This document shows, in pieces, positions 35,112 through 61,121 of a DNA stretch of 64,000 bases. Source of the stretch: Kaistella jeonii (GTDB lineage: Bacteria; Bacteroidota; Bacteroidia; Flavobacteriales; Weeksellaceae); contig NZ_JSYL01000002.1 in NCBI RefSeq assembly GCF_000812865.1, positions 682,001 to 746,000 on the forward strand, given 5' to 3'. Under the pieces are notes generated by a model. It worked only from the letters and a program-made list of their open reading frames with translations, searched no databases and was not told the DNA's origin. A program made the position numbers and the translations under genes. The stretch's first letter is position 1. Each line of letters opens with the position of its first letter.

Positions 35112-35543
35112 TTAGCAAAAAGCAATTTTATCTACTCTATTTTGATGTCTTCCACCTTCGAAATCGGTCGTAAGAAATTTTTCAACGATATCAATTGCCA
35201 ACTCGCTTGATATAAAACGTGCAGGAAGTGCGATCATATTTGCATTATTATGTTGTCTTGCTAATTCTGCCAGTTCTGTTTCCCAGCATAAAGCACATCG
35301 AATTCCCTGGTGCTTGTTCGCTGTAATCGCAACTCCTTCGCCACTTCCACAGATAAGAATTCCCAGTTCATTCTCTTTATTTTCTACAGAGGTTGCAGTT
35401 GGATGGACGAAATCTGGATAATCTACAGAGTCTTTAGAAAAAGTCCCGAAATCCTGCACTTCATATTGACCTTTCAGATGTTTTTTGATGATTTCCTTGT
35501 ATTCGAATCCTGCATGATCGCAAGCAATAGCAATTTTTTTCAT
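35112..35543 (-). CDS. rpiB: Ribose-5-phosphate isomerase B
   Basis: 143 residues from the ATG at 35543 (MKKIAIACDHAGFEYKE); an in-frame codon at 35564 would add seven residues. CDHAG, the active-site CGSGEGVAITANK, and RCALCWETELAELARQHNN define the RpiB/LacAB family. It interconverts ribulose-5-phosphate and ribose-5-phosphate in the pentose phosphate pathway. It is the first gene of the minus-strand run down to tsaB and diverges from pgk across a long AT-rich gap. Confidence 0.94.
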   Translation of the reverse strand: MKKIAIACDHAGFEYKEIIKKHLKGQYEVQDFGTFSKDSVDYPDFVHPTATSVENKENELGILICGSGEGVAITANKHQGIRCALCWETELAELARQHNNANMIALPARFISSELAIDIVEKFLTTDFEGGRHQNRVDKIAFC

Positions 35544-36185
35544 TTTTAAATGTAATTTTATCAATTTACAATTCTTACAAATTTAATACTATTAATATAA
35601 ATAGGGTTTGATTGAATCTTAAAAATTTCGCTATTGAATGAAATTTAATTAAAACTTTTGTTGCTAAAAATAGAAATATTCGGAAAGTTCACTAAAAAAT
35701 CTAGACGTAGGACCGTAAATAGAGTGAAACTTCACGCCAAAAAAAAATCATTATAAAATGTTAGCATAATCTCGAATTGATGTGGATAAGTAAATAAAAC
35801 AAATCCTTTTCGCATTCATTTTTAATTCATACTGCAATTACTTTTTAGATTACGACCAAAATAGTTAGATAAAGTTTAAGAACTAAAATGAAGGTCTTTT
35901 CAATACTTAAATTATTAATAGAGTAAAAAATCATGTGTTATTGACAATAGTGTAAAAGCTAAGTAAATACTTATAAACCAATTTATTAACTTGTTAGTAA
36001 AATATGAAATACACTGCTACTACTTGTGGTAAAATATTTGCAATTTATTTCTCCCCAAATACACAAACTACAACAACACTATTCATTTTCTTTTTTTAAT
36101 AAAAGAAGATAATGTAGATAAAATGAGTTAATGGGGATTGTGGAATTTTAAGGGAAATTAAATTTTTATTCGAGCAAATTAATCC
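35544..36185. other. Long AT-rich gene-free region, candidate replication-origin region
   Basis: About 640 bases with no credible reading frame, between divergent rpiB and pgk; this is the longest gene-free stretch in the window. It is very AT-rich, has one perfect DnaA-box sequence TGTGGATAA at 35781-35789 and several weaker look-alikes (for example near 35940 and 36025). A small hairpin GTGA/TCAC sits near 35728-35739. With two parS sites 2.4 and 4.3 kb away and a change of gene-strand bias nearby, an origin role is possible but unproven. It could also hold an untracked small RNA. Confidence 0.35.
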
Positions 36186-36193
36186 TAAATTTG
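36186..36193 (+). promoter_or_regulatory. Candidate -7 element for pgk
   Basis: TAAATTTG, an exact TAnnTTTG match, 25 bases before the pgk ATG at 36219. No clear -33 TTG. Confidence 0.45.
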
Positions 36194-36218
36194 TGAAACT
36201 TAAAAGCAGGAAAAAACT

Positions 36219-37409
36219 ATGAAAACAATTAACGATTTTAATTTTAAAGATAAAAAAGCATTGGTGAGGGTCGATTTTAACGTTCCGCAAAGTGCAGACT
36301 TGAAAGTTACGGATAATAGCCGGATTCAGGCTGTAAAACCAACTATTGATAAGATTTTGAACGATGGAGGTTCTGTTATTTTGATGACCCATTTGGGTAG
36401 GCCAAAAGGTAAAGTTTCTGAAGAATTTTCTTTGAAAAATATTGTCCCCGAAATTGAAAAAGTTTTAGGTAAACAAGTTCAGTTTTGTCCAGATTGCATT
36501 GGAGCAGACGCTGAAAATATGACGAGAAATTTAAAACCAGGAGAAATTCTTTTGTTAGAAAACCTACGTTTTTATAATGAGGAGGAAAATGGTGATGTGC
36601 AGTTTGCAGAAAAATTATCAAAATATGGAAACGCCTATGTGAATGATGCCTTTGGAACTGCGCACAGGGAACATGCTTCTACTGCTGTAATTGCACAATT
36701 TTTTCCTTCAACTAAATTTTTCGGTTTATTGATGGAAAAAGAATTAAATGCGATTGATAAAGTACTGAAAAGTGGAGAGAAACCTGTTCTTGCGATTTTG
36801 GGAGGATCAAAAGTTTCAACAAAAATTACTATTATTGAAAATATTTTGCCTGCAATTGATCATTTAATTATTGGTGGTGGTATGGCTTTCACCTTTGTCA
36901 AAGCTCTGGGTGGACAAATTGGAAACTCATTGGTTGAAACAGATAAATTACAGTTAGCGCTAGAAATTTTGGAAAAAGCAAAAGTGCAGAACGTAAAAGT
37001 TCATTTGCCTGTAGATATTATTATTGCCGATGAATTTGGCAATGATGCAGAAACTAAAGAAGTTGATGTTTACGATATTCCTGATGGTTGGATGGGATTA
37101 GATGCTGGTAGGAAAACAAGATTATTGAATCATGACGTGATTATGAATTCGAGAACAATATTGTGGAATGGACCGATTGGCGTTTTTGAAATGCCTAATT
37201 TTTCTTCTGGTACAATCGCGTTGGGTGACAGTATTGCCGAAGCAACCGAACAAGGAGCTTTCTCATTAGTTGGGGGAGGAGACAGTGTAGCGTTTGTAAA
37301 ACAATTCGGTTATGAAGATAAAGTAAGTTATGTTTCAACCGGTGGAGGAGCAATGCTTGAGAGTTTAGAAGGAAAAGAACTTCCGGGAGTAAAAGCAATT
37401 AATCATTAA
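36219..37409 (+). CDS. pgk: Phosphoglycerate kinase
   Basis: 396 residues, normal length. The start has KKALVRVDFNVPQ, followed by THLGRPKG, VNDAFGTAHREHAS, LGGSKVSTK and the nucleotide-binding GGGDSVAFVKQFG near the C-terminus. It transfers phosphate from 1,3-bisphosphoglycerate to ADP in glycolysis (and the reverse in gluconeogenesis), in the cytoplasm. Single gene with its own -7 element and terminator. Confidence 0.97.
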   Translation: MKTINDFNFKDKKALVRVDFNVPQSADLKVTDNSRIQAVKPTIDKILNDGGSVILMTHLGRPKGKVSEEFSLKNIVPEIEKVLGKQVQFCPDCIGADAENMTRNLKPGEILLLENLRFYNEEENGDVQFAEKLSKYGNAYVNDAFGTAHREHASTAVIAQFFPSTKFFGLLMEKELNAIDKVLKSGEKPVLAILGGSKVSTKITIIENILPAIDHLIIGGGMAFTFVKALGGQIGNSLVETDKLQLALEILEKAKVQNVKVHLPVDIIIADEFGNDAETKEVDVYDIPDGWMGLDAGRKTRLLNHDVIMNSRTILWNGPIGVFEMPNFSSGTIALGDSIAEATEQGAFSLVGGGDSVAFVKQFGYEDKVSYVSTGGGAMLESLEGKELPGVKAINH

Positions 37410-37671: not shown

Positions 37672-38490
37672 CTATTTTTTTTCGATTACGTATATCAAAC
37701 TTGAATATTCGCCAGTTTTTAAAGCTTTAAAATTAGAAATGCTTCCGAAAATCATTCCTTTAATCCAAAATAAGCTTGACTTCTTGTATTTTTCACTGAG
37801 CATGGAAATATAAAAGGAATCGAGTAGGAGAGGTTTGATTTTTTTTATTTTCCAATTTTCATTATTCATTAATTTTTCCATTCCTAATTTTGTGAAATGA
37901 TAAATATGTCGCGGTACATCATAAGCAGCCCAAAATTCTTTATAATGTTGCGCATCGAATGAAGTAGGATTAGGAATTGCAATAATTAATAAACCGTTGA
38001 TTTTCAGTTTATTATGAAATATTTTTAAGATATCTTCTTGATTATCAATATGTTCAAATACATGCCATAAAGTGATTGCATCTAAACTTCCGTTTTCGAT
38101 AGAATTTAAATCACTTAAAATTTTTGTTTTTGATAATTTCTCAGAGGCAAAATTTCTTGCTGAATTATTAGGTTCTAAGCCTAAGGTTTTAAAATCGTTT
38201 TCAATGAACTTTAGAAATTCACCAGCACCACATCCATAGTCCAGAACTTTTGCGTTTGAAGGTAACTCATTTTTTAAGATATCTTTTTTATATTTTAAAT
38301 TAAAACCTTGTAAGAACTTATAGAGTTTTTCTTTTAGACTTCCCGAATCCTGATGGTGCGAAATGTAATCTACACTATCATAATATTTATCCAGGTTGGT
38401 AGGAATTGGAAATGTTTTGTAAACACCTTTTGCTTCCGTTTCCTTTATTTCGAATATTTCCTGGGTTAAAAAATGATCTTTAATTTTCAT
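37672..38490 (-). CDS. Class I SAM-dependent methyltransferase
   Basis: 272 residues. Motif I is VLDYGCGAGEFL; DAITLWHVFEHI and GLLIIAIPNPTSFD are typical post-I and motif IV/VI segments of methyltransferase type 11/23 proteins. The N-terminus (TKxxF-like KTFPIPTNLDKYY) resembles methyltransferases acting on sugars or small molecules in envelope synthesis. Cytoplasmic; substrate unknown. It lies downstream of mnmG on the same strand, with a parS site between them. Confidence 0.85.
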   Translation of the reverse strand: MKIKDHFLTQEIFEIKETEAKGVYKTFPIPTNLDKYYDSVDYISHHQDSGSLKEKLYKFLQGFNLKYKKDILKNELPSNAKVLDYGCGAGEFLKFIENDFKTLGLEPNNSARNFASEKLSKTKILSDLNSIENGSLDAITLWHVFEHIDNQEDILKIFHNKLKINGLLIIAIPNPTSFDAQHYKEFWAAYDVPRHIYHFTKLGMEKLMNNENWKIKKIKPLLLDSFYISMLSEKYKKSSLFWIKGMIFGSISNFKALKTGEYSSLIYVIEKK

Positions 38491-38549: not shown

Positions 38550-38581
38550 ATTTAGAATGTTTCACGTGAAACATTCTAAAT
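38550..38581. promoter_or_regulatory. parS site 1 (ParB-binding), extended 32-bp palindrome
   Basis: The 16-base core TGTTTCACGTGAAACA (38558-38573) is identical to the canonical bacterial parS. It sits in a perfect palindrome extended to 32 bases (outer arms ATTTAGAA / TTCTAAAT). It abuts the mnmG stop codon at 38582. parS sites load ParB for origin segregation and cluster around oriC. Confidence 0.9.
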
Positions 38582-40444
38582 TTATCTTCCTAAAAAGATA
38601 AGAAGAACATTAATATCTGCCGGCGAAACTCCACTGATTCTTCCTGCCTGTGCAATGGATTGTGGTTTCACTTTATTTAGTTTTTGTTTGGCTTCAGATG
38701 ATAAGGAATTGATGTTGGTGTAATCAAAACCCTCTGGAATCTTAATCGTTTCTAAACGGTTTAGTTTTGCAACGTTTTCCCTTTCTTTTTCGATGTAACC
38801 TCTGTATTTAATATTTATTTCTGCCTGCTCTTTTACTTCTTGCGAAAAATCACCTATCTTTTCATTGATAAAATCAATTTCCTCTAATTTATCTAAGGTC
38901 ATATTTGGTCTCGTTAAAATCTGTGAAGCACGATAAGCCTGATCAACAGGAGAGGATTCTATACTTGCTAAGATAGGATTTATAATGCCAGGTTTTAAAG
39001 AGGTTTCTTTTAAATAATCTTCTAACTGATTGCTTTTAGCAATTTTCTCTTCTACATTTCTAAGTCTCGTTTCATCAGCTAAACCTAATTGATATGCTTT
39101 TTCGGTTAAGCGAATATCTGCATTATCCTGTCTTAAAAGCAATCGATATTCTGCTCGGGAAGTAAACATTCTGTAAGGTTCTTCGGTTCCTTTTGTAATT
39201 AAATCGTCAATTAAAACTCCAATATAAGCTTCATCGCGGTTTAATATAAATTCACCTTTATCATGCACCTTATTGTGCGCATTAATTCCTGCCATTAAAC
39301 CTTGTCCTGCCGCTTCTTCATAACCAGTTGTACCATTTATCTGTCCGGCAAAGTATAGATTTTGAATTAATTTCGTCTCTAAAGTATGATATAATTGAGT
39401 AGGAGGGAAGTAGTCATATTCTATTGCATATCCTGGTCTGAACACCTTCACATTTTGGAAACCCGGAATATATTTCATCGCTTTGATTTGAATATCTTCA
39501 GGAAGAGAAGAACTAAATCCATTAACGTAGATCTCAACGGTTCTCCAACCTTCTGGTTCTACAAATAATTGATGGCGATTCCTCTCTGCAAAACGATTGA
39601 TTTTATCCTCAATACTAGGACAATATCGTGGACCAGTACTTTGTATTGTTCCATTAAACATGGGGCTTCTATCGAATCCTTCCCGTAAAATATCGTGTAC
39701 CGTTTCATTGGTATATACAATATGACAACTTAGTTGTTTTGTGAGTTTTGGGGTATCTGAATAGGAGAATTTATGAGGTTTTTCGTCGCCTTTTTGTTCT
39801 TCCATTTTTGAATAATCTAAACTTCTGCCGTCAACTCTTGGTGGAGTTCCAGTTTTCATTCGACCAGATTCAAAACCTAGTGATACGAGCTGTTCTGTGA
39901 TCCCAGAAGCTTTTGGTTCTCCCATTCTTCCCCCGCCTAGCTGTTTATCACCTACGTGAATTAAACCGTTTAAGAAGGTTCCATTGGTTAGAACGACGGA
40001 TTTTGCTTTGATTTTTATTCCTAAACTCGTAATTACTCCAACTACTTTGTGATTTTCTATGATAAGGCTTTTAACCATATCCTGAAAAAAGTCGAGATTA
40101 TTCGTATTTTCCAAAGCGTATCTCCATTCTTCAGCAAATAACATTCTATCATTTTGTGTTCTTGGAGACCACATTGCAGGACCTTTTGATAGATTTAACA
40201 TCTTGAACTGGATCGCTGATTTGTCTGCAATTATTCCGGAATAACCTCCCATTGCATCAATTTCCCGAACGATTTGTCCTTTTGCAATTCCGCCCATCGC
40301 AGGGTTGCAAGACATTTGTCCGATTGTTTGCATGTTCATTGTAATTAGTAAGGTTTTGGAACCCAAATTTGCGGCTGCTGCTGCTGCTTCAGATCCTGCG
40401 TGTCCTGCTCCTACTACGATAACGTCGTATATTTCGCTTATCAT
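38582..40444 (-). CDS. mnmG: tRNA uridine-5-carboxymethylaminomethyl modification enzyme MnmG (GidA)
   Basis: 620 residues. N-terminal FAD-binding motif VVGAGHAGSEAAAAAANLG, then CNPAMGGIAKG, GTPPRVDGRS, the middle RAEYRLLLRQDNAD, and the helical C-terminal MnmE-binding domain (YRGYIEKE, AGRISGVSPADI). With MnmE it makes cmnm5U34 at the tRNA wobble position. The gene is often near oriC in bacteria; here it is bracketed by two parS sites. Confidence 0.97.
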   Translation of the reverse strand: MISEIYDVIVVGAGHAGSEAAAAAANLGSKTLLITMNMQTIGQMSCNPAMGGIAKGQIVREIDAMGGYSGIIADKSAIQFKMLNLSKGPAMWSPRTQNDRMLFAEEWRYALENTNNLDFFQDMVKSLIIENHKVVGVITSLGIKIKAKSVVLTNGTFLNGLIHVGDKQLGGGRMGEPKASGITEQLVSLGFESGRMKTGTPPRVDGRSLDYSKMEEQKGDEKPHKFSYSDTPKLTKQLSCHIVYTNETVHDILREGFDRSPMFNGTIQSTGPRYCPSIEDKINRFAERNRHQLFVEPEGWRTVEIYVNGFSSSLPEDIQIKAMKYIPGFQNVKVFRPGYAIEYDYFPPTQLYHTLETKLIQNLYFAGQINGTTGYEEAAGQGLMAGINAHNKVHDKGEFILNRDEAYIGVLIDDLITKGTEEPYRMFTSRAEYRLLLRQDNADIRLTEKAYQLGLADETRLRNVEEKIAKSNQLEDYLKETSLKPGIINPILASIESSPVDQAYRASQILTRPNMTLDKLEEIDFINEKIGDFSQEVKEQAEINIKYRGYIEKERENVAKLNRLETIKIPEGFDYTNINSLSSEAKQKLNKVKPQSIAQAGRISGVSPADINVLLIFLGR

Positions 40445-40474
40445 TTGTTTATTGATAAATGAGTTAATTTTTGA

Positions 40475-40494
40475 AATGTTTCACGTGAAACATT
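40475..40494. promoter_or_regulatory. parS site 2 (ParB-binding)
   Basis: The core TGTTTCACGTGAAACA (40477-40492) is identical to site 1 and to the canonical parS; the perfect palindrome extends to 20 bases. It lies 31 bases upstream of the mnmG start codon, so bound ParB could also affect mnmG transcription. Confidence 0.9.
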
Positions 40495-40522
40495 AATTTT
40501 TGTTCATAATTAGTTGTGTTTT

Positions 40523-40600
40523 TAGCCCCGATGGGAACGGTATCCTATTGTGCAGCGGAGCGGAACAATAGATATAGTGGACAGCGGGAAAAAGCTCCTA
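40523..40600 (-). repeat. Intergenic repeat element, copy B (after ybeY)
   Basis: Second copy of the element. On the plus strand: TAGCCCCGAT, GGAACGG, GTGCAGCGGAGCGGAACA, AGTGGACAGCGGGAAAAAGC. The inner stem pairs 40545-40551 with 40565-40571 and continues (TAT/ATA) past one bulged C; the outer arms CCCG (40527-40530) and CGGG (40585-40588) pair. Its end overlaps the ybeY stop codon. Strand is given in the sense of ybeY. Confidence 0.75.
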
Positions 40601-41005
40601 AAAAATAGACAAATAATAATCTTCTTTACTGCGCATTTCGGAAATTTCTTCTTCCGTTTTATCCTTATAACCGCAGAGATGTAAAATACCATGAGCTAAA
40701 ACGCGAAGTAATTCAGAATCAAACGCTTTGGATAACGAAGAAGCGTTCTCTAAAATGCGGGGCAAAGATACAAAAATATCTGCTGAAATGGTTTTGCCCT
40801 TCACATAATCAAATGTAATCACATCTGTATAATAATCGTGCTGGAGAAAATCACGATTTACCTTTAGAAGGTGCTCGTCATCACAAAATATGTAATTAAT
40901 TTCACCTGGTTTCTTATGTTCTGATATAATAAGTTGCTCCAACCAAATTTCTGTATTTGTTGGGAGAGGAATTTCATTTAAATTTTCGAAGAAAAATTGT
41001 ATCAT
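40598..41005 (-). CDS. ybeY: Endoribonuclease / rRNA maturation factor YbeY
   Basis: 135 residues. The core VLAHGILHLCGYKDKTEEE matches the YbeY metal site HGxxHLxGY; the third histidine usually found as GYDH is replaced by GYKDK, a difference I believe is common in Bacteroidota. YbeY takes part in 16S rRNA 3'-end maturation and ribosome quality control. The stop codon lies inside the end of a repeat element. It is three bases from the patatin gene upstream. Confidence 0.92.
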   Translation of the reverse strand: MIQFFFENLNEIPLPTNTEIWLEQLIISEHKKPGEINYIFCDDEHLLKVNRDFLQHDYYTDVITFDYVKGKTISADIFVSLPRILENASSLSKAFDSELLRVLAHGILHLCGYKDKTEEEISEMRSKEDYYLSIF

Positions 41006-50264: not shown

Positions 50265-50317
50265 TTCAAATTTTCTTTTTAGAAGCCCCAAGATTTTAGC
50301 ATATTTCGAAGATCAGA

Positions 50318-50386
50318 CCAGCTTTCCGCTCTATCTTTTCCTCGTCGTACCTCCTCAAAAAAGGATGCCGCTACAATCTGGGCTAA
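50318..50386 (+). repeat. Intergenic repeat element, copy C (after fabG)
   Basis: Third copy, in the opposite orientation to A and B. On its other strand the shared words are TTTAGCCCAGAT, AGCGG, ATCC, and AGAGCGGAAAGCTGG. Outer arms CCAG (50318-50321) and CTGG (50378-50381) pair, changed together relative to CCCG/CGGG of copy B. The inner stem pairs 50335-50339 with 50359-50363, with one bulged base and two more pairs. The fabG stop is 53 bases before the outer arm. Confidence 0.65.
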
Positions 50387-50403
50387 AATAAAAAATATTT
50401 CTT

Positions 50404-50530: not shown

Positions 50531-51682
50531 ATGAGCGAACTATTTCAACTATTTAAAAACACAAGATCGCACTCATTTGCGCTCTGTAAACCTCTCGAAA
50601 TCGAGGACTACATTCCACAACCTGTGGATTTTGCAAGTCCACCGAAGTGGCATCTAAGTCACTCAACCTGGTTTTTCGAGGAGATGATTCTTAAAAACTT
50701 CGTTCCTGATTACCAAGTTTTCAATCCTCATTTTGCGTTTTTATTCAACAGTTATTACCAGACTTTAGGCGAAAGAGCCATCCGAACAGAACGTGGAACG
50801 ATTACCCGTCCAACGATTGCTGAAGTCTATGAATACCGCAATTACGTTGATGAACACATCGAAAACTTATTAAAAACAAACTCGACGCCGGAATTAGAAG
50901 AATTGATCATTCTAGGAATTAATCACGAGCAGCAACATCAGGAGCTTTTAATTACCGATCTTAAACATACTTTCTCCTACAATCCAATTTTCCCTGTTTA
51001 TAAAGAAGGTTTTAATTTAACTGCTCAAGAAAACGCAGACGAAGGTTGGTTAGAAATAAAAGAAGGAGTTTACGAAATCGGTTATGAAGGAACTGACTTT
51101 CATTTTGACAATGAAAAAGGCAGACACAAAGTATTTCTACACGATTTTCAAATTTCAAAATCTTTAGTAACCAACGGCGAATATATAGAATTTATGGAAG
51201 CTGGAGGTTACGACAATTTCAAACTCTGGCTCGATGAAGGTTGGAGTTGGGTGAATGATAATCAGATAAAATCACCTCTCTATTGGAAGAAAGTTGACGG
51301 GACTTGGCATTCCTATACTTTAGAAGGCCTAAAACCAGTTCAACCCAAGCATATTTTAACACATATTTCTTTTTACGAGGCCCAAGCTTTTGCTAATTGG
51401 AAAGGCATGAGATTACCGAGCGAATTCGAATGGGAAATTGCCTCCGACCAATTGGATTGGGGAAAACGCTGGGAATGGACCTATTCGGCTTATTTACCTT
51501 ATCCAAATTTCCACATTGCTGAAGGAGCCGTTGGCGAATACAACGGTAAATTCATGATCGGTCAAATGGTATTGCGCGGAAGTTCTACTGCAACTCCAAA
51601 AGGTCACGAAAGAAAAACATATCGAAATTTTTTTCAACCCAAATACAGGTGGCAAATCACCGGAATAAGATTAGCAAAATGA
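50531..51682 (+). CDS. egtB: Ergothioneine biosynthesis protein EgtB (sulfoxide synthase)
   Basis: 383 residues. An N-terminal DinB-type helical domain supplies the iron ligands: HLSHSTWFF (H44) and HEQQHQELL (H132, H136). A C-terminal formylglycine-generating-enzyme-like domain has KGMRLPSEFEWEIAS, WEWTYSAY and YRWQITGIRLAK. EgtB is a non-heme iron enzyme that joins a thiol (gamma-glutamylcysteine or cysteine) to trimethylhistidine as a sulfoxide. No egtA, egtC or egtE gene is nearby, so the sulfur donor could be free cysteine. It overlaps egtD by four bases. Confidence 0.92.
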   Translation: MSELFQLFKNTRSHSFALCKPLEIEDYIPQPVDFASPPKWHLSHSTWFFEEMILKNFVPDYQVFNPHFAFLFNSYYQTLGERAIRTERGTITRPTIAEVYEYRNYVDEHIENLLKTNSTPELEELIILGINHEQQHQELLITDLKHTFSYNPIFPVYKEGFNLTAQENADEGWLEIKEGVYEIGYEGTDFHFDNEKGRHKVFLHDFQISKSLVTNGEYIEFMEAGGYDNFKLWLDEGWSWVNDNQIKSPLYWKKVDGTWHSYTLEGLKPVQPKHILTHISFYEAQAFANWKGMRLPSEFEWEIASDQLDWGKRWEWTYSAYLPYPNFHIAEGAVGEYNGKFMIGQMVLRGSSTATPKGHERKTYRNFFQPKYRWQITGIRLAK

Positions 51683-52632
51683 CGAAAAACGACACTTTTT
51701 TAAAAGATATTGAAGCAGGATTGAGTCAAAATCCAAAATATATTTCTTCGCATTATTTTTACGACAAAGCTGGGGATGAACTTTTCCAGCAGATCATGGA
51801 AATGCCAGAATATTATCTGACCAATTCTGAACTGGAGATTTTTAGTCAGCAAAGTGAAGCCATTATAGAATCTTTCCAGATAAATCCGGATGAGGAATTT
51901 GAATTGATAGAGTTAGGAGCAGGCGATGGAAAGAAAACACTGCATCTGTTAAAAACTTTGCTCGAAAAAAGTTACCGCTTTAAATTTATTCCTGTTGATA
52001 TTTCTCACAACAGCCTTGCAGTGATTACGGAACGCATGGAAGATTTATTTCCGGATCTAGAAATTGATCCTCAACAAGGAGATTATTTTCAGGTTTTAGA
52101 TGAACTCTTTACTTCAGATAGACCAAAAGTAATTTTGTTCATCGGCTCCAATCTTGGTAATATGCAGGACGAAGTTGCAAGAAGTTTTCTTCATAAAATT
52201 GCGGATCATTTAAAACCCAATGAAAAGTTGCTTTTAGGAGTAGATCAAATTAAATCTAAAGATATTGTTCTTCCTGCATACAATGATGCAGCTGGAATAA
52301 CACGAGATTTTAACCTTAATTTATTGAAAAGGATCAATCGGGAATTAGGTGCAGATTTTGACTTAGAGAATTTCGAACATGATCCAGAATATACTGAAGA
52401 AGAAGGTATTGCAAAAAGTTTTTTGAAAAGCACTAAAAAGCAATCAGTTTATATTAAAGAACTCGGTAAATCTTTTGAGTTTGCTGAAAATGAACTGATT
52501 CATACAGAGATTTCCAGGAAGTACAATGATACAATTTTGCAAAATCTTATTGATGATTCAATGCTTGAAATCACCCATAAATTTCTGGATTCAAAAAAAT
52601 ATTTTGCAGATTACATTCTGACTAAAAAATGA
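51679..52632 (+). CDS. egtD: L-histidine N(alpha)-methyltransferase EgtD
   Basis: 317 residues from the ATG at 51679, which overlaps the egtB stop (ATGA); an earlier in-frame start at 51649 lies inside egtB and is unlikely. SSHYFYDKAGDELFQQIMEM and PEYYLTNSELEI are typical EgtD text, and IELGAGDGKKT is the SAM-binding motif. EgtD trimethylates histidine to hercynine, the substrate of EgtB. It overlaps the following racemase-family gene by four bases. Confidence 0.94.
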   Translation: MTKNDTFLKDIEAGLSQNPKYISSHYFYDKAGDELFQQIMEMPEYYLTNSELEIFSQQSEAIIESFQINPDEEFELIELGAGDGKKTLHLLKTLLEKSYRFKFIPVDISHNSLAVITERMEDLFPDLEIDPQQGDYFQVLDELFTSDRPKVILFIGSNLGNMQDEVARSFLHKIADHLKPNEKLLLGVDQIKSKDIVLPAYNDAAGITRDFNLNLLKRINRELGADFDLENFEHDPEYTEEEGIAKSFLKSTKKQSVYIKELGKSFEFAENELIHTEISRKYNDTILQNLIDDSMLEITHKFLDSKKYFADYILTKK

Positions 52633-57586: not shown

Positions 57587-57877
57587 ATGGAAACTTACAA
57601 TTTTAATCAGGAAGCAAAATTTTCACAAGCTCAAAGAAGAGTGAAATGCATCAAAGGATTTTATGTTCACGCCACGATTTATCTCGCCGTAAACGTAATT
57701 ATCATTGCAGGATGTGCGGTTGATAACGTAAGCAGTTTATTAACTTCTGATCCGTACATGACCGCATTATTCTGGGGAATCGGTTTGGCTGCACACGGAA
57801 TGTCAGTTTTTGGACAGGACTTTATTCTGGGAAAAAACTGGGAGGAAAAAGAAATTCAGAAAATATTAAATAAATAA
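57587..57877 (+). CDS. 2TM domain protein (first in cassette)
   Basis: 96 residues forming one 2TM domain: a charged helix AQRRVKCIKGFYVHATIY leading into the first membrane segment (LAVNVIIIAGCAV), a short loop, a second segment (MTALFWGIGLAAHGMSVFG), and the signature GKNWEEKEIQKIL. The same pattern recurs three more times within the next 2 kb. Inner-membrane protein, function unknown. It is 33 bases before the LytS-type kinase. Confidence 0.85.
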   Translation: METYNFNQEAKFSQAQRRVKCIKGFYVHATIYLAVNVIIIAGCAVDNVSSLLTSDPYMTALFWGIGLAAHGMSVFGQDFILGKNWEEKEIQKILNK

Positions 57878-57910
57878 TTTAGAATTTTCTTTTATTATTA
57901 AATTTACAGA

Positions 57911-59239
57911 ATGGATTTTAAAGACGTTAGAAAGCAGGCAACAATTTCTCTCTGGATCTCTTTCGGAACAGGCCTTTTCTTTTTTACTTTTTTTACAGAT
58001 GAAAAAAGTGTTAATAATTTGTTGATCAGCTTTTTAGTTTCTTCTATTTATTCCTTCGTTTTTGTTTTCGGGAATTTTTATACCAACTGCTATCTCAATT
58101 CAAAATATTCCTGGATCGATGATACCAGAACGCGAATCATCCTCGGAATTGTGGCAACCATTTTTGTTAATATCATTTTAGTCCTATTTTGCAACTACTT
58201 GAATTTCATTGTTCTTCAGAAAAACAGTCCAGATCATTTTTTCACCGGTCAAATGGGATTTGTCAATTGGGTCATCATTAATATTGCACTTTTGGTTTCT
58301 GCGATCATACATGCGAAAGGCTTTATGGAAGAATGGAAAAAATCCTCCAGAAAAGAAGTTGTAGAACAGAAATTAATCGCGAAATCGGCCAACGCACAAT
58401 TTGAAAGTTTAAAGAACCAACTCGATCCACATTTTCTTTTTAATTCTTTGAATGTTTTAAGTGCTTTAATTGATGAAAACCCGAATCAGGCGCAAAGGTT
58501 TACGGCTTCGATGTCTAAAATTTACCGCTATGTTTTGGAGCAGAAAGACAAAGAACTCGTTACCGTGGAAGAGGAAATTGAATTTGCTAAAACCTATTGC
58601 AATCTTTTGAAAACGCGTTTTGAAGATAGTGTGAGCTTTGATTTTAATGTTAACGAAACGGCTTTGAAATCTTACGTAGTTCCACTTTCTTTACAACTGC
58701 TTTTAGAGAACTGTATCAAACATAATTTTGCAACTTCAAGCAAACCTTTACACATTAAAATATACTCAGAAAACGGATTTCTTTTTATAGAAAATAATTT
58801 ACAGCAAAGAGAACAGGTCAAAGAAAGCGCAGGAATTGGCCTTTCAAATATCGTTCAACGTTATTCATTACTGACGAAACAAAATGTTTTCATCGAAAAA
58901 TCAGATGATTTTTTCAAAGTGAAAATACCAATGTTAACCAAAAAAATTACCGCCATGACCACACAACCTACTAAAGAATCAATATCCTACCAAAGAGCAG
59001 CCAAAAGAGTTGATGAACTGAAAGGATTCTACAGCAATTTGATTTCTTACTGTCTCGTCATTCCATTTTTACTGTTTATTAATCTATACACATCGCCAAA
59101 ACACTTATGGTTTTACTGGCCGATGTTAGGATGGGGTTTTGGATTATCGATACACGCCTTGAAAACATTTGGCATCGGTAAAAACTGGGAAGAAAAACAA
59201 ATTCAGAAAATTTTAGATAGAGAAAATTCAAAAAAATAA
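57911..59239 (+). CDS. LytS-type sensor histidine kinase with C-terminal 2TM domain
   Basis: 442 residues. Four transmembrane helices (about 11-30, 37-57, 75-98, 115-135) are followed by a His_kinase domain with the phosphoacceptor H174 in LDPHFLFNSLNVLSALI, and an ATPase domain with N-box LLENCIKHNF and G-box GIGLSNIVQRY. From about residue 357 a complete 2TM domain is fused (YQRAAKRVDELKGFYSN, GKNWEEKQIQKIL). The kinase should phosphorylate the LytTR regulator at 60378. The C-terminal 2TM may pair with the separate 2TM proteins of the same operon; this is inference. Confidence 0.92.
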   Translation: MDFKDVRKQATISLWISFGTGLFFFTFFTDEKSVNNLLISFLVSSIYSFVFVFGNFYTNCYLNSKYSWIDDTRTRIILGIVATIFVNIILVLFCNYLNFIVLQKNSPDHFFTGQMGFVNWVIINIALLVSAIIHAKGFMEEWKKSSRKEVVEQKLIAKSANAQFESLKNQLDPHFLFNSLNVLSALIDENPNQAQRFTASMSKIYRYVLEQKDKELVTVEEEIEFAKTYCNLLKTRFEDSVSFDFNVNETALKSYVVPLSLQLLLENCIKHNFATSSKPLHIKIYSENGFLFIENNLQQREQVKESAGIGLSNIVQRYSLLTKQNVFIEKSDDFFKVKIPMLTKKITAMTTQPTKESISYQRAAKRVDELKGFYSNLISYCLVIPFLLFINLYTSPKHLWFYWPMLGWGFGLSIHALKTFGIGKNWEEKQIQKILDRENSKK

Positions 59240-59244
59240 ATAAT

Positions 59245-59544
59245 ATGGAAAATTTAACCGACAATGAAACTGATTATTCTATCGCAAAGGAAAGAGTAAA
59301 TCAAATGAAAAAGTTTTACGCAAGCGTATTCATTTATATTCTGCTATTTGCAATCTATAGTTTTCACAGATATTATAAAACGGGTGAAATTACATTTTTA
59401 GACTACAATGGTTTCTCCGTTATTTTCTGGATTTGGGGAATTGTTTTAGCGACAAAAGCTTTCAAAATATTCTTTTTTAACCACAGTTGGGAAAGAAAAA
59501 TGATCGACAGAGAACTTAATAAAGAACATGATGGAAAATTTTAA
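59245..59544 (+). CDS. 2TM domain protein (second separate copy)
   Basis: 99 residues, one 2TM domain: IAKERVNQMKKFYASVFIYI, second segment GFSVIFWIWGIVLATKAFK, and a variant signature HSWERKMIDRELNK in place of GKNWEEK. It is the most diverged of the four 2TM units. It begins 5 bases after the kinase stop, and its last codons overlap the start of the next gene by 17 bases, so the genes are translationally coupled. Confidence 0.85.
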   Translation: MENLTDNETDYSIAKERVNQMKKFYASVFIYILLFAIYSFHRYYKTGEITFLDYNGFSVIFWIWGIVLATKAFKIFFFNHSWERKMIDRELNKEHDGKF

Positions 59545-59821
59545 CGGAAACAATATCAAGTATTTAGAAGCACAAAAAAGAGTAAAAAGGTTGAAAGGAT
59601 TTTACATTCATGCCGTAGTTTATGTTCTGGTAAATCTTTTTATCATTGCACAAAATGTAGAATCCGGTGCCTCCCTTTCCAATATGGAAAATTACTGGAC
59701 TGCCATTTTCTGGGGAGTTGGTTTACTCGGTCATGCAACCAGCGTTTTCCTGCCGAATATGTTGATGGGAAAAGACTGGGAAGAGAGAAAAATTCGGGAG
59801 TTAATGGATAAAAATAAATAA
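59528..59821 (+). CDS. 2TM domain protein (third separate copy)
   Basis: 97 residues with AQKRVKRLKGFYIHAVVYVL, the second segment AIFWGVGLLGHATSVF and GKDWEERKIRELMDK. It is closest to the first copy (57587) by eye. Either ATG at 59528 or 59531 could be used. It overlaps the previous gene and is one base from the methyltransferase-like gene. Confidence 0.85.
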   Translation: MMENFNGNNIKYLEAQKRVKRLKGFYIHAVVYVLVNLFIIAQNVESGASLSNMENYWTAIFWGVGLLGHATSVFLPNMLMGKDWEERKIRELMDKNK

Positions 59822-60377: not shown

Positions 60378-61121
60378 ATGATAAAAACCGTCATCATCGA
60401 AGATGAAAAACCTGCTGCACGAAAACTTGAAAGATTAATTGGTTTGTTTCCTGATTTAGAATTAGTTGCAACCCTAAATTCTGTAGAAGATGGTTTAGAG
60501 TGGTTTCAGAATAATTCACATCCAGATTTGATATTTTCAGATATTGTTTTAGGCGATGGATTGTCTTTTGATATTTTCGAAAAGGTTCCTACGAAGAGTT
60601 TTATGATCTATACAACGGCGTTCGATCAATATACTTTAAAAGCATTTAAACTAAATTCTATCGACTATCTTTTGAAGCCAATAATGGAAGAAGATCTGGA
60701 GAAAGCAATCAATAAGTTCAAGAGTTTCTTACCTTCAGAATCGTCTAATAATTCATTGGAAATCAAATCTTTAATTAAAGAAGAGAAACAAAAATTATCC
60801 CGAATTTTAGTGAAGATCGGCTACAATTTAAAGATTGTGCAGACCAATGAGGTTTCATGTTTTTACAGTGAAAATAAGATCGTTTATCTTCAAACCAAAG
60901 AAAGAAATTACCCGACCGATTTTACTTTAGATGAACTTCAGGAAGTTCTCGACGAGAAGAAATTCTTCCGCGTGAACCGACAGTTTATGATCAATTCTAA
61001 CTTCATTAAAAATATTCATACTTCGCCTTATTATAAAGTAGAAATGGAATTTCAGCCAGAAGAAGAAATTACGGTAAGTCGTGATCGTGTTAAGGATTTT
61101 AAAGATTGGTTGAGTAATTAA
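60378..61121 (+). CDS. LytTR family response regulator
   Basis: 247 residues. The receiver domain has acidic EDEKPAARKLERL and the phosphoacceptor D55 in LIFSDIVLGDG; KP is present in YLLKPIMEEDLE. The C-terminal LytTR DNA-binding domain (about 135-247) includes FFRVNRQFMINSNFIKNI. It is the natural partner of the LytS-type kinase at 57911. LytTR regulators bind short direct repeats; none was recognised upstream of the operon. Confidence 0.94.
   Translation: MIKTVIIEDEKPAARKLERLIGLFPDLELVATLNSVEDGLEWFQNNSHPDLIFSDIVLGDGLSFDIFEKVPTKSFMIYTTAFDQYTLKAFKLNSIDYLLKPIMEEDLEKAINKFKSFLPSESSNNSLEIKSLIKEEKQKLSRILVKIGYNLKIVQTNEVSCFYSENKIVYLQTKERNYPTDFTLDELQEVLDEKKFFRVNRQFMINSNFIKNIHTSPYYKVEMEFQPEEEITVSRDRVKDFKDWLSN

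Follow-up and report, generated by a model that had tools for sequence, protein, structure and literature searches.

The window analysed here, a 64-kb stretch of Kaistella jeonii DNA (C2:682001-746000 of the draft genome), carries mnmG (gidA) at 38582-40444 on the reverse strand. The ORF encodes a tRNA U34 modification enzyme (NCBIfam TIGR00136, 869.5 bits against a cut-off of 524.85), and the closest MnmG among the best 80 named relatives is that of Kaistella gelatinilytica (97%). The gene is bracketed by two copies of the 16-base palindrome TGTTTCACGTGAAACA, at 38558-38573 (site 1) and 40477-40492 (site 2). A scan of the window found both without a mismatch, exactly as the first-pass annotation had described them, one on each side of mnmG. 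Site 1 lies 8 bp past the mnmG stop codon and forms the core of a perfect 32-bp palindrome (38550-38581). Site 2 lies 32 bp upstream of the mnmG ATG, at the end of the intergenic gap, and forms the core of a 20-bp palindrome (40475-40494). The upstream neighbor of mnmG is ybeY (40598-41005, reverse strand; TIGR00043, 90.7 bits against a cut-off of 45), and the downstream neighbor is an ORF for a class I SAM-dependent methyltransferase (37672-38490, reverse strand) whose NCBIfam matches are weak and all under cut-off. This ybeY-mnmG-methyltransferase order is kept in 77 of the 81 loci of our mnmG set, which consists of 80 named loci and the window. Farther along are pgk, encoding phosphoglycerate kinase (36219-37409, forward strand; a full-length match to the kinase half of NF010569, under the cut-off of that fusion model), and rpiB (35112-35564, reverse strand; TIGR01120, 159.4 bits against a cut-off of 138.65).

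The gap between mnmG and ybeY also holds a Flavo-1 RNA-like element next to site 2 (40520-40595, forward strand; Rfam RF01705, 58.6 bits against 42), which is probably a bystander. An exact 16-base probe for this GC-rich repeat had no match in 262 loci, and its name came from Rfam; a second RF01705 copy lies at 50311-50388 on the reverse strand. Two other regions of the window were read by eye. Positions 57587-59821 hold several short, mutually related membrane proteins in a row, which have a C-terminal W-E-(E/R)-(K/R) motif in common; one of them sits behind a histidine-kinase-like region, and a LytTR-like response regulator adjoins at 60378-61121. Positions 50531-52632 hold two overlapping ORFs whose translations resemble an EgtB-EgtD-type pair of an ergothioneine-like pathway.

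Both palindromes match the 16-bp parS consensus perfectly, the same consensus that is used in a study of gut bacteria (PMC10197239). The genome-wide search for the 16-mer proposed by the first-pass annotation returned only these two perfect copies of TGTTTCACGTGAAACA in the 3,261,282-base draft (35 contigs), clustered about 1.9 kb apart and not numerous or evenly spread. The third-best match in the genome is a single further site with two mismatches at C2:256700. Base composition predicts about 0.001 perfect copies in 3.26 Mb, and the control pattern, the 16-mer reversed and uncomplemented, has no match in this genome. Within the window, three matches with up to three mismatches were found against 0.53 expected, and none of 100 shuffles reached three. 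A chance match to parS was rejected. Judged from their sequence, the two palindromes are very probably real chromosomal parS sites.

The first-pass annotation had remarked that the window contains neither parA nor parB, and both were located on contig C8. Its reading of the palindromes as places where ParB would load hinged on a ParB homolog in the genome, and one is present with an adjoining ParA. The genome encodes one ParB_N protein (PF02195, 107.9 bits); it scores 171.3 bits with the ParB model TIGR00180 (cut-off 58.45), and the parA ORF, whose product has the KGGVGKT motif, lies 40 bp upstream in the same direction. Alignment with solved Spo0J/ParB proteins shows that ParB carries the CTP motif GERRFRA. 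Residue positions were assigned through the GKxR and GHxR motifs in the numbering of PMC7383237. The protein has R, S, R, and G at the positions equivalent to 173, 179, 184, and 201, and the R204 equivalent is also present. Every ParB orthologue retains R173 and G201, at which Noc has Q and R (PMC7383237), and the base-reading residues at these two positions are thus of the ParB type and not of the Noc type. Five of the six conserved DNA-contact residues given in that study match, and position 172 is E versus S in Caulobacter.

A canonical SMC was not found in the genome with TIGR02168, whose cut-off is 567.35 and whose best score here was 22.3 bits; of 14 control genomes, 10 scored above that cut-off. 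The only SMC_N matches over cut-off are ORFs of 554 and 375 amino acids, which by size resemble RecN and RecF. This condensin search consisted of the SMC models TIGR02168 and SMC_N. Because no canonical SMC was found here and no known condensins are reported in two gut Bacteroidetes (PMC10197239), the role of parS in this genome is probably partition by ParA and not condensin loading.

Conservation was followed in the family and then in the phylum. Exact TGTTYCACGTGRAACA occurs in 53 of 60 family genomes, the present one included: 41 have two copies, 12 have one, 7 have none, and no genome has more than two. A perfect site is present in 36 of the 60 (again with our own), and the reversed control pattern has no match in any of them. 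In 38 of the 41 two-site genomes the pair lies on one contig with a spacing of 1888-1951 bp, which corresponds to one mnmG; of the remaining three, G047 has its pair split over two contigs, and for G018 and G051 only the first coordinate was listed. In each of the 29 family loci extracted around a site, that site adjoins mnmG. In the mnmG locus set, a site was counted if it lay within 600 bp of the gene and had at most two mismatches. Every one of the 25 Kaistella/Chryseobacterium-type loci, window included, has sites on both sides of mnmG, with a perfect copy at the site 1 place in 23 and at the site 2 place in 24. The other 56 loci have an upstream site in 51 cases, a downstream site in 46, both in 42, and at least one in 55; the locus with a site on neither side is L065. 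Their commonest form is TGTTCCACGTGGAACA (57 of 130 sites). In total, 180 sites with up to two mismatches fall in the mnmG flanks (about 97 kb) versus 25 in the 1,444 kb elsewhere in the loci. Throughout the set the 16-base core hardly varies, in contrast to its drifting flanks. Extended palindromes as a property of all sites were rejected, flank pairing being equal to that of shuffles in three of four site groups. Some loci differ in detail. The same-genus genome G026 (L029) has a downstream site without a complementary-arm palindrome. In place of two parS-like sites within 600 bp of mnmG, Flavobacterium and Neptunitalea loci (L084, L085, L086, L103, L109, and L110) have four to seven, many of them asymmetric variants with a final T, C, or G. 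In some Chryseobacterium (L040 at 3736, L054 at 3140, and L058 at 3737), parS-like sites with a single mismatch are present upstream of mnmG at a distance of about 6-7 kb, possibly as extra weak sites.

A degenerate parS pattern is found in 72 of 99 phylum genomes and is absent from 27; the reversed control matches one. Coordinates were compared by eye for the 41 genomes that remain when three family members are set aside from the 44 listed among these 72. In 38 of these 41 examined parS-bearing non-family genomes the mnmG match has a site no more than about 155 bp away, with sites at both ends in 13, a count that holds only for those examined because the 27 pattern-free and 28 unlisted genomes fall outside the mnmG comparison. 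The exceptions are G083 and G122, in which the exact site is on another contig than mnmG, and G130, in which it is 25 kb off. Twenty of the 41 belong to a single family (f15) of another class. The dnaA gene was located in 15 of the 41. It is less than 10 kb from mnmG in G121, G110, G114, and G090 (all f15) and in G145, and near the other end of a one-contig record in G133 (f15). The distance is 150 kb to 1 Mb in G117, G066, G115, G126, and G064; in G083, G075, G130, and G099 the two genes are on different contigs. These distances, read outside any tree, suggest that dnaA once stood beside mnmG and parS and later moved away in the lineage of the window.

The first-pass annotation took the sites as a mark of origin proximity, and this was measured by GC skew. 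Thirteen family genomes are single contigs, and six of these were sampled in twenty 20-kb stretches each and fitted to a two-level skew step, with gene-strand bias still included in the signal. A switch placed at parS gave R2 values of 0.54, 0.81, 0.27, 0.56, 0.54, and 0.75, compared with 0.04-0.25 for an origin at dnaA and 0.03-0.33 for an origin at parB in the same six genomes. The best-fit origin falls within 5% of the chromosome from parS in five of the six and is 5-10% off in G027, where R2 is 0.27 at parS versus 0.44 at the best fit. When the stretches of the six relatives were pooled, 53 of 62 to the left of parS were not positive and 50 of 58 to the right were positive. In these six, dnaA lies 27-42% and parB 20-33% of the chromosome away from parS, and across the twelve single-contig family genomes with listed parS coordinates dnaA is about 27-45% away. 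Skew in the present genome is weak. Of the C2 stretches, 9 of 11 to the left of the window are negative; the contig ends 62 kb to the right, and the two stretches on that side have skews of -0.016 and +0.006. Third-position skew, calculated to remove gene-strand bias, was too noisy. The claim of origin proximity is thus shown in the relatives, six of six of which switch skew at or near parS, and the present genome's own skew, in which no switch is visible, speaks neither for nor against it. The skew in relatives supports mnmG, and not dnaA, as the gene that marks the origin.

The best guess for oriC itself is the 654-bp gap between rpiB and pgk (35565-36218, 76% A+T), about 2.3 kb from site 1, a candidate proposed from the enrichment of DnaA boxes in the same gap of 25 related loci. 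The gap holds the DnaA box TTATCCACA at 35781-35789 on the reverse strand; this is its one exact box, two are counted with up to one mismatch, and as an oriC it is thin. The box is unremarkable by itself because the whole window has four TTATNCACA boxes against 2.82 expected. Over the 25 Kaistella/Chryseobacterium-type loci, TTATNCACA occurs 26 times in 21.1 kb of pgk-rpiB gap and 8 times in 512.8 kb elsewhere; the gap has at least one such box in 21 of the 25 and all the boxes of the locus in 14, and these are not 25 independent events because the gap was chosen with knowledge of the boxes and the loci are related to one another. Boxes with up to one mismatch to TTATCCACA number 70 in these gaps compared with a mean of 7.0 in 60 shuffles (maximum 13), and the one-mismatch box density is 3.32 versus 0.33 per kb in other A+T-rich windows, a tenfold difference. 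Of the sampled stretches, the one with the densest cluster of boxes is the short stretch next to mnmG in G032. The corresponding stretch of G026 has three one-mismatch boxes, a number also reached by several stretches elsewhere, and lacks any TTWTNCACA box.

The position of the palindromes immediately outside mnmG would also be expected of regulatory or RNA elements of that gene, an upstream operator and a downstream hairpin or terminator, whose likeness to parS is incidental. The 32-bp and 8-bp distances in the window belong to a tight spacing: among the 25 Kaistella/Chryseobacterium-type loci the upstream site precedes the start by 21-63 bp and the downstream site follows the stop by 3-9 bp. 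In the window, L036, and L037 the downstream parS is embedded in a perfect palindrome of 32-36 bp, and the arms differ among the three yet stay complementary in the manner of an RNA hairpin. The flanks in one of the four site groups show more complementarity than after shuffling (4 of 2000 shuffles). The spacing is looser in the other 56 loci, with the nearest site at 6-314 bp on the upstream side or 0-476 bp on the downstream side and as many as seven sites. Pairing of the flanks is at shuffle level in the other three groups, no T run follows the hairpin on the mnmG strand, and the part that is conserved is the 16-mer known as parS. We consider a regulatory origin of the palindromes very improbable.

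The two remaining alternatives accept the sites as targets of a ParB-like protein and differ on the place or the protein. If the chromosome origin were at dnaA, the parS sites would merely be far from it. The dnaA gene is the usual origin marker and is found within the first 200 bases of 7 of the 13 single-contig family records, but the skew fits given above are poor at dnaA in the very genomes that fit at parS, and seven dnaA loci have no 600-bp window with more than two DnaA-box-like sites. The oriC of Bacteroidetes is commonly far from dnaA (PMC4755523), and in Mariniflexile dnaA conflicts with GC skew (PMC11278836). An origin at dnaA is very unlikely here. A Noc-like nucleoid-occlusion protein in place of a segregation ParB is suggested by the best-scoring NCBIfam model of the protein, Noc TIGR04285 at 240.2 bits. 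This score is under the model cut-off of 315, whereas TIGR00180 is above its own. R and G, and not Q and R, occupy the two base-reading positions, the gene adjoins parA, and no other ParB_N protein was found in the genome; Noc binding is extremely unlikely.

The two palindromes are best read as the chromosomal parS sites, and the sole perfect ones, of a ParABS system with its parA-parB genes at another place in the genome. ParB dimers would bind CTP, load on each parS, and close as clamps, which would slide over mnmG and its surroundings to build a partition complex, and ParA would move these complexes apart after replication. Replication probably starts a few kb away, with the pgk-rpiB gap as the likeliest place, so that the mnmG region would be copied first and segregated first. 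In evolution, mnmG and parS appear to have stayed at the origin, and dnaA and parAB now lie elsewhere; the order of these moves is conjectural. A broader and tentative proposal is that mnmG of the Bacteroidota is a centromere gene that was kept next to ParB-loading sites at the origin from a time before the classes split, as dnaA and parAB drifted. Its two facing sites might trap a dense row of ParB clamps over mnmG without SMC, possibly coupling mnmG expression to segregation.

Several parts of this picture are already published, namely origins far from dnaA in the phylum and an oriC at mnmG in two species. The parts are known singly because PMC4755523, PMC11278836, PMC12843772, and PMC10197239 each give one of them. 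In the available text of the literature matches listed, no description of parS flanking mnmG in the phylum was present, and parS beside mnmG across the phylum seems to be new. Livny and colleagues reportedly surveyed parS in 2007, and that survey may already list such sites. The arrangement offers a sequence-only origin marker for Bacteroidota chromosomes, where dnaA misleads. Phylum records that start at dnaA and replication-rate estimates that take dnaA as the origin would benefit. It also raises the testable question of why a single housekeeping gene has kept its place next to centromere sites throughout a phylum, here in a genome in which no canonical SMC condensin was found.

Chromosomal ParABS systems of Bacillus subtilis, Caulobacter, and others combine a 16-bp parS at the replication origin with ParB and ParA. 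The present system has the same 16-bp parS, the same kind of ParB and ParA, and sites at the origin, and it differs in that the sites bracket mnmG far from dnaA and parAB and that no canonical SMC was found. In many phyla a mnmG-rsmG-parA-parB gene group lies beside oriC. Here too mnmG adjoins the origin and parS, but parA and parB are on another contig and no rsmG was noted among the ORFs read beside mnmG. In Mariniflexile litorale (PMC11278836) and Algorimicrobium (PMC12843772), oriC was predicted at mnmG by Ori-Finder with GC skew in agreement; a figure legend of PMC11278836 inverts what its text says, with mnmG labeled ter and leuB/dnaA labeled oriC. In those Flavobacteriaceae, as here, mnmG marks the origin, unlike our case by Ori-Finder prediction and, in the available text, without mention of parS. 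Also related are the parS clusters at the origins of twelve gut bacteria, two of them Bacteroidetes, whose origins were placed by parS together with GC skew and did not always match dnaA (PMC10197239). Shared with that work are the clustering of parS at the origin, an origin not always at dnaA, and the lack of a known condensin in its two Bacteroidetes; the locus described here differs in having exactly two sites that bracket one gene, mnmG, which the accessible part of that study does not name. The element is of an ordinary kind, parS, in an unusually conserved setting.
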